From Caulobacterales bacterium (GTDB taxonomy: Bacteria > Pseudomonadota > Alphaproteobacteria > Caulobacterales > Caulobacteraceae): a stretch of DNA of 64,000 nucleotides. A program made the position numbers and the translations under genes. The notes beneath the pieces were generated by a model, which was given only the letters and a program-made list of their open reading frames with translations, was not told the origin of the DNA and did no database searches. Below are positions 26,006 through 60,629 of this stretch, in pieces; position 1 is the stretch's first letter; each line of letters begins with the position of its first letter. Location: NCBI GenBank assembly GCA_947474395.1, contig CANJID010000007.1:1-64000 (forward strand), written 5' to 3'.

Positions 26006-27874
26006 ATGCCCTATACCGCCGCTCAGCTGACCGCCTACTACACGGCCGTGAACTTCGGACAGGCTCCGGACACCGCCACCGCCGCCGCCTTCAACCAGGC
26101 CGCGGCGGCCAACGCCGCCGGGACCCTGTCGGACCAGCAGGCCCTCGCCCTCGCCCTGCAGAACGCCCAGGTCCGCGCGACGACCGACGTGGCGGTGGCG
26201 ATCTACCAGTATTTCAACGGCTCGGCGCCCAGCCAGGCGGGCATCAACTTCCTGCTCAACACCCCCGGCTCGGGGCTGAACACCTCGTACTACAACGGGG
26301 CCACGGGCACGGCGACCAACCCCAGCGCCGGCGGCTTCAACCTGGAGAACCGCTACTACAACCTGGCCATCAGCCAGGCCTTCCAGGGGCCGAACGCGGC
26401 GGCCTTCGCCTCCACCTACGGCGGCCTGACGCTGCAGCAGACGGTCGCCACGGCCTATGAGCAGCTCGTGGGCGCGGCCGTGGTCGGCAGCCCTCAGGCC
26501 ACCGCGGCCATCACCGCGATCCAGGGGTCGATCACTTTCTTCCAGCAGGTGGCGGCCCAGCGGGCGGCGCAGTTCAACCAGGACCTCGCCACCAAGGCCA
26601 TCATCATCGGCTACATCATGGAGGAGTCGATCAAGGCGGACGTGGGCGCCTACGCCCTGGCCGTCGACCAGCACAACGCAGCCATCGCCAACGGCACGGC
26701 CGTCTATAATTCCAACATCCTGACCACCTACGCCCCCGGCCCGCCCGCCTATGGGACCGGGGTCGGCGGCGGGGCCCTGCCCACCTATCTCAGCGGCGGC
26801 ACGGTGGCGCAGCAGCGGCTCAACCTGCCGGCCAACGGCACGGTCATAGCCAACGGAACCGTGCAGGGCGGCACCCAGCTGCAACTCCGGGACGCCTCCG
26901 GTCCGTCGGATATCCTGAACCTCGTGTTCGACAACGGGAACACGGCCAACATAGGGGGCCAGGCCGGCGTCAGCGTCTCGCAGCTTCAGCTCGGCGGAAC
27001 CGCGTCCGCAGGCCAGGTGGAGACCCTGAAGATCGTCTCCGCCGGAAGCTGGACCTCGGGGAACTTCGGCTCCGAGAACGGCATGACGTTCAGCACCGCG
27101 GCCTCGACCCCCAACACCGTGACCATCAGCGGCTCGCAGGCCTTCTTCCTGTTCACCGGCAACTCCAGCCACAACATGCTGATCGACGGCTCCGCCGCGA
27201 CCGCGAGCCTGACCATCCGGGGCGACCCGGCCACGGGGGCGACCGTCTCGATCAACATCAACGGCGGCTCGGCCAACGACACCCTCAGCCCCGGCCTGTC
27301 GACGGCGGCGGTGGCCCAGACCGTCTACGGCGGCGGCGGCGGCGACCTGATTCTCCTGAGCGGCGGCACCGTGACCAACAGCGGCGGAGTCACCGGCTTC
27401 GGCTCGAACCACAAGGCGATCGACACCCTGGTCTACAAGGCGGCGACGGACTCCTACTTCGGTACGGGCGCCGGTGATCCGGGCGCCAACCGGTTCACAG
27501 TCGCCAACACCGGGACCATGGACGCGGTGATGGGATTCATCTCCGGCCAGGACAAGATCGACCTGCGTCAGATGGGCGTGACCCAGGCCCAGCTGACCAT
27601 CGCCGACAAGGGGGTGCTCAATACGCCGGGCGTCGATAACGCCGGGGCGGCCTTCCAGGCGCTGATCGCCGCCGGCACTGTATTCAAGGACAGCGGCGGG
27701 ATAACCCGCGGCGCGTCCCTGCTGCACGCCACCCAGGACGACACCGGCCCGGTCAACGACGTCTACCTCATCATCGACGTCAACAAGAACGGCCTGTTCG
27801 ACGCCAACCTCGACCTCGCCATCGAGATCAGGGGCGTGGCCACGATCCTGCCCAGCGACCTGATCGGGACCTGA
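26006..27874 (+). CDS. RsaA-like S-layer/surface protein with N-terminal LPS-anchor-type domain
   Basis: A 622-residue protein without signal peptide. Residues about 1-230 (PYTAAQLTAYYTAVNFGQAP, VAIYQYFNGSAPSQAGINFL, NRYYNLAISQAF, TVATAYEQLVG) resemble the N-terminal domain of Caulobacter RsaA, which binds LPS O-antigen. The rest is Thr/Ser/Gly-rich beta structure with few charged residues and one degenerate calcium-binding RTX stretch (GGSANDTLSPG, YGGGGGDLILLSGG). The end (IDVNKNGLFDANLDLAIEI) is like type I secretion signals of RTX proteins. SD GAGGA precedes the ATG. No rsaD/E/F-type exporter is nearby, and at this length it is shorter than RsaA. Confidence 0.75.
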   Translation: MPYTAAQLTAYYTAVNFGQAPDTATAAAFNQAAAANAAGTLSDQQALALALQNAQVRATTDVAVAIYQYFNGSAPSQAGINFLLNTPGSGLNTSYYNGATGTATNPSAGGFNLENRYYNLAISQAFQGPNAAAFASTYGGLTLQQTVATAYEQLVGAAVVGSPQATAAITAIQGSITFFQQVAAQRAAQFNQDLATKAIIIGYIMEESIKADVGAYALAVDQHNAAIANGTAVYNSNILTTYAPGPPAYGTGVGGGALPTYLSGGTVAQQRLNLPANGTVIANGTVQGGTQLQLRDASGPSDILNLVFDNGNTANIGGQAGVSVSQLQLGGTASAGQVETLKIVSAGSWTSGNFGSENGMTFSTAASTPNTVTISGSQAFFLFTGNSSHNMLIDGSAATASLTIRGDPATGATVSININGGSANDTLSPGLSTAAVAQTVYGGGGGDLILLSGGTVTNSGGVTGFGSNHKAIDTLVYKAATDSYFGTGAGDPGANRFTVANTGTMDAVMGFISGQDKIDLRQMGVTQAQLTIADKGVLNTPGVDNAGAAFQALIAAGTVFKDSGGITRGASLLHATQDDTGPVNDVYLIIDVNKNGLFDANLDLAIEIRGVATILPSDLIGT

Positions 27875-57771: not shown

Positions 57772-58515
57772 ATGCCGCGTATCGCGGGGGCCGTCCTGGC
57801 CTCCCTTCTGGTCGTCGGAGCCGCCGGCTCTGCCCTCGCCGCCGCCAAGACGCCGCGCCTGACCGGGATCTGGCTGCTCGACCAGCACACCTACGACCGG
57901 CAGGAGGAGTTCCAGCCGCCGCTGAAGGCCGAGGTCAGAACCATGGCCGAGGAGAAGCGGCGCATGCGCGACCAGGGCGGCCAGTCCCTGTCGGACAACA
58001 ACAAGAAGTGCCTGCCCATCGGCATGCCGGGCATGGTCACCAACGAGTTCGCCATGGAGATCCTGGAGACCCCGGGGCGCATCACCATCGCCTCGGAGAA
58101 CAGCCCGCTTATCCGGACCCTCTCCCTGACCCGCAAGACCCATCGCCAGGACGTCGAGCCGAGCTGGAACGGGGACTCCATCGCCCATTGGGAGGGCGCG
58201 ACCCTGGCGGTGGAGACCACCCGGCTGAACGACCGGATGAGCCACTTCCCGTTCGGCTTCGGCGGAGCCCTGACGCTGACGACGAAAATCACCGAGCGTT
58301 ACCGCCTGGCCAAGGGCGGCAAGGACCTGATCAACGTCATGACCTTCGACGATCCGAACGTCATCACCGGACCCTGGACGGTCAGCTACACCTACCACCG
58401 CGCCCCCGCCGCCGCGGAGCTGTGGGAATATGTCTGCGAGGTGGAATCGGCCGGCTGGTCGGAACGCTTCGCCGGAGACCCGCAGTTCCAGAAGGACGGC
58501 GCCCCCAAGCCCTAG
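57772..58515 (+). CDS. Exported hypothetical protein
   Basis: A 247-residue protein with a signal peptide (residues 1-23). The mature part starts KTPRLTGIWLLDQHTY and contains KKCLPIGMPGM, the pattern SWNGDSIAHWEGATLAVETT and a second Cys in YVCEVESAG. This type of secreted protein is frequent in sphingomonads and Caulobacteraceae; its function is not established. The 3' end overlaps the convergent propeller gene by 4 bases (58512-58515). Confidence 0.68.
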   Translation: MPRIAGAVLASLLVVGAAGSALAAAKTPRLTGIWLLDQHTYDRQEEFQPPLKAEVRTMAEEKRRMRDQGGQSLSDNNKKCLPIGMPGMVTNEFAMEILETPGRITIASENSPLIRTLSLTRKTHRQDVEPSWNGDSIAHWEGATLAVETTRLNDRMSHFPFGFGGALTLTTKITERYRLAKGGKDLINVMTFDDPNVITGPWTVSYTYHRAPAAAELWEYVCEVESAGWSERFAGDPQFQKDGAPKP

Positions 58516-60629
58516 CTGAGAAGTCCCGACAGGTCCGCCGCCTGGGCGTCGGTATGGGCGCCGACGACACTGACCAGGGTGTCGTCGTCCGGGGCGACCT
58601 CGCTCAAGGTCGCCTTGCCCTGCAGGTAGGTCCTGGCCGTTTCGTAGTAGAGGCCGACGTGCTGGTCGAAGCCGGTGCTCATCAGGAAACCGATCATGGC
58701 CGCCTTGCCGCCGATGTCCCCGCCGCCGAGGGCCGTGAAATAGGCCTGCTGGCCGACGAGGTATGAGATGGCCTTCTCGACGTCGATCCCCGCGACGATG
58801 GCGTAGCCCTTGCCGATCACCGCGTCATAGGCCTGGCGTACCGCCGCCTCGAAGCTGAGCCCGCCGTAGTTCTGGGCGAACAGCGCGACCGCCGGCCCGT
58901 TCTTGGCCAGGCTGACTCTGAGGTTCATGAACCGCTGCTGCTGGTTGAAGCCCGCGTAATAGCCGTCGGTCAGGTCGGTGGCGTTGCCGGTGGAATCCAG
59001 CAGGTACTGCATCCCCGCGGACGTCGGCGGGGCGCCCGCGAAGAACTTGTAGGTGTCGAAGGCCGCCACCGAGGTCGGCCCCGCCAGGGCGATCAGCTTG
59101 TCCACCGCCTGGGTGAAGTTGATCGCCCCCGACTGGAGCTGAGCCTTGATCTTCAGGGTCTCCTGCTCGGCCAGGAAGATCGGGTTGGCCACCGTCTTGC
59201 CGTCCGGCGTGACCACCGTCGGCGCGGTCGCCTTGGCGGCGGTGAAGCTGATCCCGACGACATTGCCGAAGGTCTTCTCGATGTCCGCCGCGACCGGGAC
59301 GGGCGGCGCGGTCGGGCCGGTCGAGCCGCCGCCGCCGCCGCCCGAGGCGCCGCCGGTCGGGACCGTGTCCGGCAGGACGAATGTAATCACGAAGGCGTCC
59401 TGGTGGCCGCCGGTGTCGTTGATCACCAGGTTGGTCGAGCTCGAATGGAAGGCGAGCTTGTTGTTGTTCAGCCAGGCGCCGGTGGCCGCGCTGTTCCCGC
59501 TGCCTTCGACGCCTTCCTGGTTGGTCGTCACCCGCACCAGTTCGCCGGTGGTCAGGTTCTTGACGAAGACATCCGTGGAGCCGTTGGTGTCGCCCGTCAC
59601 CAGGTTCGAGGCCGAGCTGGTGAACATCACCCGCGTACCGTCCGGCGAGAAGGAGGCAAGGGAGCTGCTCCCGTTGCCCAACGCGCCCGCGCTGCTCGTC
59701 GAGACGAGGGTCGTCACCCCGCTGACCATGTCCTTCACGAACACGTCCGTGACGCCGTTGGTGTCGCCGGCGACCAGATTCGAGGCGGCGCTGGAGAACA
59801 CCACCTTGGTCCCGTCCGCCGAGAAGCTGATCCGGGTGTCGACGCTGTTGCCGTTCGACTGAGCGCCGGCGCTGTCGGTGGAGATGCGGGTGGTGGTCCC
59901 CGCCCCGGCCCCAGACAGGATCTTCACGAACACGTCGATGAAGCCGTTGGTGTCGCCCGCCACAAGGTTGGTGGACGAGCTGAGGAACGCCACCTTGGTC
60001 CCGTCCGGCGAGAGGAAGGGCTGCAGGCTGGTCCCATTGCCCTGGGTCCCGCCGCTGTCGGTGGAGGCCAGCACGACCGCGCCGCTGGTCAGGTTCTTGA
60101 CGAAGACATCCTTGGCCCCGTTGGTGTCGACCCCGACCAGGTTGGTGGCGTTGTCGTCGAAGGCGACAAGATTGCCGTCCCCGGAGATCGAGGCTGACAC
60201 ACTGATCGTGCCGGAATTGGCCTGGACTCCGGCCCCGTCCGTGCTGACCCGAATGGTCACGCCGGTGGACAGGGTCTTCACGAACACGTCCGGGCGGTTG
60301 TTCGTGTCGCCGGCCACTAGGTTGGTGGCGGCGCTGGTGAAAATGATCTTTGAGCTGTCGGCCGAAAAATAGACTGGGCCGGCGCTGGCGTCATTCGCCT
60401 GGGCGCCCGCGGTGTCCGTGGAGATTCGTGTGATCGCCCCGGTCGCCAGATCCTTCAGGAACAGGTCCGTGACGCCGTTGGTGTCGCCGACCACGAGGTC
60501 GTCCGCGTCGCTGGCGAAGACGACCTTGGTCCCGTCCGGGGAAACTACAGGATCGCCGCTGCCGTGATCTCCCCCGAGTCCGCTGCTCGTGGTGGATACT
60601 CGAACGATGGACTGATAGACGACCGGCAT
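58512..60629 (-). CDS. Seven-repeat beta-propeller protein with C-terminal RsaA-anchor-like domain
   Basis: A 705-residue protein without signal peptide. Residues about 25-425 hold seven repeats of the type VFSSAASNLVAGDTNGVTDV, FVKDMVSG, spaced about 60 residues, i.e. a TolB/PD40-like seven-bladed propeller. A Gly/Pro linker (GGASGGGGGGSTGPTAPPVP) follows. From about 440 to the end the sequence (FDTYKFFAGAPPTSAGMQYL, DGYYAGFNQQQRFMNLRVSL, YGGLSFEAAVRQAYDAVIG) resembles the RsaA N-terminal LPS-binding domain, here at the C terminus. The ATG is chosen over a GTG three codons earlier. Export is probably by type I secretion. Confidence 0.75.
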   Translation of the reverse strand: MPVVYQSIVRVSTTSSGLGGDHGSGDPVVSPDGTKVVFASDADDLVVGDTNGVTDLFLKDLATGAITRISTDTAGAQANDASAGPVYFSADSSKIIFTSAATNLVAGDTNNRPDVFVKTLSTGVTIRVSTDGAGVQANSGTISVSASISGDGNLVAFDDNATNLVGVDTNGAKDVFVKNLTSGAVVLASTDSGGTQGNGTSLQPFLSPDGTKVAFLSSSTNLVAGDTNGFIDVFVKILSGAGAGTTTRISTDSAGAQSNGNSVDTRISFSADGTKVVFSSAASNLVAGDTNGVTDVFVKDMVSGVTTLVSTSSAGALGNGSSSLASFSPDGTRVMFTSSASNLVTGDTNGSTDVFVKNLTTGELVRVTTNQEGVEGSGNSAATGAWLNNNKLAFHSSSTNLVINDTGGHQDAFVITFVLPDTVPTGGASGGGGGGSTGPTAPPVPVAADIEKTFGNVVGISFTAAKATAPTVVTPDGKTVANPIFLAEQETLKIKAQLQSGAINFTQAVDKLIALAGPTSVAAFDTYKFFAGAPPTSAGMQYLLDSTGNATDLTDGYYAGFNQQQRFMNLRVSLAKNGPAVALFAQNYGGLSFEAAVRQAYDAVIGKGYAIVAGIDVEKAISYLVGQQAYFTALGGGDIGGKAAMIGFLMSTGFDQHVGLYYETARTYLQGKATLSEVAPDDDTLVSVVGAHTDAQAADLSGLLS

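Follow-up and report, generated by a model that had tools for sequence, protein, structure and literature searches.

Layout of the locus

The analysed window, a stretch of 64,000 nucleotides from a Caulobacterales genome (GCA_947474395.1, contig CANJID010000007.1), contains at 58512-60629(-) a single intact open frame that begins with ATG at 60629 and encodes a protein of 705 aa (Table 1). The composition of the frame is coding-like, with a GC3 of 0.918 and similar values in its neighbours. The product contains no cysteine and is acidic (62 D+E versus 36 K+R), and no N-terminal signal peptide was seen on inspection of its sequence.

The N-terminal part of the protein carries the motif D-T-[NG]-[GN]-x-x-D seven times, at residues 49, 108, 168, 226, 289, 347 and 405, with a spacing of 58-63 aa, and the repeats are assigned to PD40 by Pfam (E 2e-18). 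The original prediction had described this region as a regular seven-bladed propeller, which is supported by the seven regular repeats and the Pfam assignment, although the blade number is sequence-based and the propeller models are of low confidence: the strands were modelled with moderate to low confidence and gave TolB/S9-type fold matches, and the single-sequence model reached a pLDDT of 35. Closure into a ring of seven blades is predicted from the seven repeats, with the N-terminal strand probably closing the last blade. The glycine-rich linker proposed between the repeats and the C-terminal domain is present as a Gly/Pro-rich segment at residues ~418-447.

In another alphaproteobacterium, PD40 arrays of this type are joined to RTX export regions. 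The fusion of PD40 to the C-terminal domain found here, RsaA_NTD, occurs in one genome only among those searched: 12 related genomes that carry the domain, 79 named loci and the propeller relatives in 289 genomes of the class yielded no orthologue of it. PD40 repeat arrays were also observed in two flagellin-like proteins, L240 (G370:C18; Flagellin_C, E 6e-21) and L234 (G259:C74; Flagellin_N, E 6e-8), for which a propeller-decorated filament is possible.

Table 1. Positions of the features of the 705 aa protein and of the second RsaA_NTD protein in the window
Feature	Position	Strand	Basis
Whole ORF, 705 aa, without visible signal peptide, without Cys, acidic	58512..60629	-	Sequence
Array of seven PD40 repeats (residues ~8-417), interpreted as a single seven-bladed propeller	59379..60608	-	Repeat spacing; Pfam PD40 E 2e-18; strands of moderate/low confidence; TolB/S9-type fold matches
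Gly/Pro-rich linker, residues ~418-447	59289..59378	-	Sequence; low pLDDT in model
RsaA_NTD module (residues 448-676), all-helical, spanning the entire RsaA N-terminal domain	58602..59288	-	PF19198; 6t72 by sequence and fold; model
Counterpart of the RsaA Ca2+-binding loop 77-100, GMQYLLDSTGNATDLTDGYYAGFN	58944..59015	-	Alignments; loop definition from PMC6978808
Post-loop helix, RsaA 102-111: E102Q, N103Q, I106M, F108L, S109R, N111S	58911..58940	-	Alignments
C-terminal tail (residues 677-705), where an uncleaved type I secretion signal may lie	58515..58601	-	Position only; very end of low pLDDT
The other RsaA_NTD protein in the window (622 aa), with N-terminal domain and degenerate Ca2+ loop	26006..27874	+	Pfam RsaA_NTD; alignments

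Identity of the C-terminal module

By Pfam, sequence and fold alike, the C-terminal domain of the 705 aa protein is genuinely of the RsaA N-terminal type, in agreement with the RsaA-like anchor-type domain originally proposed at this end of the protein. The Pfam family RsaA_NTD (PF19198) matches residues 519-676 with 109-113 bits (E ~1e-32 to 2e-31), about four times the curated Pfam cut-off of 27 bits by which membership was defined. Among PDB sequences the module matches 6t72, the cryo-EM structure of the RsaA N-terminal domain with LPS (E 1.3e-25), and the protein has no significant PDB matches other than solved RsaA structures. Since the RsaA_NTD match (109.4 bits) so far exceeds its cut-off and is joined by the match to 6t72, a chance sequence match is excluded.

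Comparison of a predicted structure with the RsaA N-terminal domain, proposed as a check, gave the same answer. The AlphaFold model of residues 448-676 is almost all-helical with a pLDDT of 90-98 for nearly all its length, and its best Foldseek match is again 6t72 (E 3.9e-11, TM on target 0.76), with the whole 242-residue target aligned and the fold of RsaA residues ~1-243 recovered. In the model the folded module begins near residue 448, ~70 residues ahead of the start of the Pfam match, and therefore covers the whole RsaA N-terminal domain beyond the Pfam core.

The identity named beforehand as speaking against an anchor was that of a generic DUF4214-like cohesion or secretion module without LPS-binding residues, here taken as unrelated to RsaA anchoring. 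One of 46 relatives does match DUF4214 (PF13946) with E 0.15, but the 705 aa protein gave no match to it, all 46 relatives match RsaA_NTD (best E 7.6e-82) and the top match by both fold and sequence is 6t72. This identity was rejected; it is largely refuted already and its remaining probability is negligible.

The second protein of the window, at 26006-27874(+), has RsaA_NTD at its N terminus according to Pfam, and the two proteins thus carry the domain at opposite ends, as had been noticed. The accompanying claim that it is the same domain holds at the level of the family but not of the subclade: the two copies lie in separate well-supported subclades, and close kinship between them was rejected, with a p-AU of 0.0066 for their forced grouping. 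The nearest kin of the 622 aa protein's domain on the tree is that of an RsaA-like protein of contig C11. The degenerate Ca2+ loop of the 622 aa protein reads LLNTPGSGLNTSYYN, and a 12-residue insert lies ahead of its conserved helix.

Repertoire and distribution of RsaA_NTD

The source genome (3.58 Mb) contains 23 RsaA_NTD matches. Tabulation of position and partners, as had been suggested, placed the domain at the C terminus of 12 intact ORFs and one broken frame, and at the N terminus of nine ORFs and one truncated copy. The C-terminal copies are joined to PD40, Calx-beta (2), M10/serralysin-like protease (3), CAP, CHRD (2) and RTX (3), and in relatives to bacterial Ig, beta-helix, Calx-beta, FG-GAP, PPC and long RTX arrays. 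The damaged copies lie at G000:C5:51298-52038 and G000:C10:59116-59367, the damage being an upstream in-frame TAA in one and truncation after ~64 model positions in the other. Three successive genes with C-terminal RsaA_NTD, encoding two SapA-like M10 proteases and one CAP protein, were observed at bases 6799-12922 of L035 (G000:C57).

Of 102 copies placed on a tree, 70 are C-terminal and 26 N-terminal, and six or seven changes of end are needed; the starred branches of the large quick tree force five, and bootstraps of a smaller, more careful tree give five to six. The 58512-60629(-) copy groups with large Ig-like/beta-helix proteins (Caulobacter segnis FS and others) in a C-terminal clade that has 100/98 support. 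The original view of the domain as a portable module is well supported by the 23 copies in one genome, their occurrence at either end, the many types of partner and the switches of end on the tree, and the presence of 23 such genes in a single genome suggests that the domain is a general surface clip.

The family is taxonomically narrow, being present in 13 of 149 genomes of the family Caulobacteraceae, in one of 385 genomes of a class sample (the source genome itself) and in two of 398 genomes of a phylum sample, both from the same family. Matches outside Caulobacteraceae come from metagenome bins under other names and could reflect misbinning or transfer.

Export

The 705 aa protein is a candidate type I substrate: no signal peptide is visible and the genome encodes an ABC transporter of the cognate type, while a C-terminal uncleaved signal would lie in the tail by position only. 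On contig C11, ~8 kb separate the RsaA-like gene from a PrtD-type ABC gene, which is followed by genes for a HlyD adaptor, a NeuD-like acetyltransferase, a sugar aminotransferase and a glycosyltransferase. The neighbours of rsaA-rsaD-rsaE in Caulobacter crescentus include O-antigen genes. The C11 locus is much like the rsaA-rsaD-rsaE arrangement of that species (PMC3034196).

Across the 149 genomes of the family, RsaA_NTD was found in 9 of the 11 with top-scoring PrtD matches (721-797 bits) versus 4 of the 138 others (p 5e-10), the threshold having been chosen post hoc at a score gap (721 down to 663 bits) among related genomes; the co-occurrence of RsaA_NTD with any PrtD match over the cut-off was weak (p 0.15). 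In eight genomes no more than 10 kb separates the ABC gene from an RsaA_NTD gene, and two genomes (G076 and G125) have RsaA_NTD without a strong PrtD match. The co-occurrence of an RsaD-like ABC transporter with RsaA_NTD counts as supportive only.

The C-terminal domain could itself be mainly a type I secretion or folding module that chaperones export, with the protein released and surface retention incidental. This agrees with most C-terminal copies stopping 3-40 residues past the domain, which leaves scant space for a separate signal, and with SapA, which is apparently type I-secreted without a clearly identifiable type I signal (PMC3034196). The domain is N-terminal in RsaA-like proteins, however, where the signal is C-terminal and the proven role of the domain is O-antigen binding, and a primarily secretory function is considered improbable.

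Calcium loop, divergence and ligand

The N-terminal domain of RsaA binds O-antigen in a Ca2+-dependent manner and has a Ca2+ loop that comprises residues 77-100, and RsaA subunits are in contact through Asp30-Lys142 (PMC6978808). The loop of the 58512-60629(-) copy, GMQYLLDSTGNATDLTDGYYAGFN, retains Asp at RsaA positions 83, 90 and 93 in the alignment, and the equivalent of Lys142, which is Lys in 5/5 RsaA-clade sequences, is Ala. The retained loop Asps together with the change of Lys142 to Ala would fit anchoring without lattice contact. Independence from S-layer crystal formation, part of the original prediction, is likewise consistent with the loss of this inter-subunit residue. The features of an S-layer protein (RsaA orthologue) were not found in the 705 aa protein, which has PD40 in place of the lattice-forming C-terminal domain as well as Ala at position 142.

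Of the 102 copies, that of 58512-60629(-) has diverged most: it keeps 67% of the strongly conserved columns, the lowest share of all (median 92%), and no end branch of the tree is longer than its own (1.02). Residue N103, otherwise 99% conserved, is Gln in this copy; the changes at N103 and S109 (Arg) are unique to it, and Met at I106 is seen in no other C-terminal member. O-antigen binding by this copy may be lost or altered because of this divergence and these singular changes. Asp 90 and Asp 93 are both absent in 42 of the 70 C-terminal copies, protease-bearing ones included (L151, L158 and the NNLNS subgroup), and the Ca2+ site is therefore not fixed across the family.

Such divergence could reflect a decaying or little-used fusion, that is, a paralogue drifting after duplication without a surface role, as could the restriction of the architecture to one genome and the broken appearance of two more RsaA_NTD copies in the genome (the frame with TAA and the truncated copy). 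Decay is very improbable in view of the intact 705-codon frame, its coding composition, the seven regular repeats and the well-packed helical model. A folded, homologous module that has lost RsaA-type O-antigen binding and has as its ligand another surface glycan (capsule, holdfast or other LPS form) or fellow RsaA_NTD proteins would agree with the length of the end branch, the low share of conserved columns and the location of E102Q, N103Q and S109R next to the Ca2+/O-antigen loop. O-antigens also differ from strain to strain. This altered ligand is nonetheless rather unlikely, as every Asp of the Ca2+ loop is kept and the predicted fold covers the full RsaA N-terminal domain. Anchoring to LPS O-antigen by the divergent 58512-60629(-) module is a plausible prediction, drawn from its conserved loop and from the presence of an RsaA-like gene with type I secretion and sugar genes.

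Proposed role

The reading favoured here, with somewhat better than even confidence, is that the 705 aa protein is a surface-displayed beta-propeller held to the cell by a predicted C-terminal RsaA-type O-antigen-binding module. It is based on the homology to PF19198 and 6t72, the portability of the clip and the transfer of function from RsaA and SapA, and also on the retained loop Asps, the Ala in place of Lys142, the export and O-antigen-type sugar genes near the RsaA-like gene, the co-occurrence with the ABC transporter and the PD40-RTX fusions elsewhere. Export without a signal peptide would proceed through an RsaDEF-like type I system, the ABC and HlyD genes that adjoin the RsaA-like gene presumably serving the 705 aa protein as well. 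Outside the cell, Ca2+ would fold the helical module and its Asp loop, the loop being conserved and its Ca2+ binding expected from RsaA. The module would then attach to LPS O-antigen without entering the lattice, and the flexible linker would extend the propeller, whose probable target is a ligand, glycan or partner cell. The protein would be one of ~20 in the source genome with a common surface clip and differing payloads.

There is an even chance that some Caulobacteraceae possess an O-antigen-anchored surface proteome, in which dozens of type I-secreted proteins with propeller, protease, CAP, CHRD, Ig or beta-helix payloads have a single RsaA-type clip in common and S-layer proteins are one branch only; it would be the Gram-negative equivalent of the SLH system. 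If so, O-antigen anchoring via the RsaA N-terminal fold would be a general form of Gram-negative surface decoration beyond S-layers. It would define a testable set of surface proteins, help to explain the cell-surface seat of SapA-like enzymes and offer naturally occurring models for C-terminal display tags in Caulobacter.

Comparison with known systems

The module resembles the N-terminal domain of the C. crescentus S-layer protein RsaA (6t72; PF19198) in its family, in its predicted fold throughout and in keeping Asp 83, 90 and 93. It differs in being C-terminal with a PD40 partner, whereas the RsaA domain is N-terminal with a lattice partner, and in having Ala for the inter-subunit Lys142, N103Q and the adjacent changes. 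RsaA similarity in the methanotroph 'hauberk' S-layer proteins omits the LPS-binding part, and these were rejected as carriers of the module.

The C-terminal half of SapA was reported to resemble the N terminus of RsaA in 2002 (reviewed in PMC3034196), and SapA/Sap, an S-layer-associated metalloprotease (NF051884), has its functional domain first and an RsaA-NTD-like domain at the C terminus, as in 58512-60629(-). The C-terminal part of the SapA profile matches residues 487-672 of the 705 aa protein (E 3e-29, 102 bits). This precedent and profile match mean that the principle of a C-terminal anchor was already known, contrary to the original statement that the architecture had no description, while PD40 as a partner and an RsaA_NTD repertoire of this size and variety appear undescribed in the literature and collections searched. 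Neither PF19198 by name nor an RsaA-like domain outside RsaA was found in the literature searched, which was mainly non-subscription. Identity with SapA itself was rejected, the 102 bits comparing with an NF051884 cut-off of 1200 and the M10 protease domain being absent: the payload is an M10 protease in SapA and a propeller here. The SapA-like relatives L151 and L158 differ further in being without the loop Asps that 58512-60629(-) keeps.

The Caulobacter FG-GAP proteins L182 and L204 likewise have propeller-type repeats followed by a C-terminal RsaA_NTD, but these belong to another propeller family and another RsaA_NTD subclade. In Gram-positive bacteria, the SLH domain is a module common to S-layer and non-S-layer proteins that binds a cell-wall polymer, the secondary cell wall polymer. 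By analogy only, RsaA_NTD resembles it as one anchoring module for S-layer and non-S-layer proteins alike, whereas the SLH domain has its own fold and the secondary cell wall polymer, rather than LPS, as its ligand.
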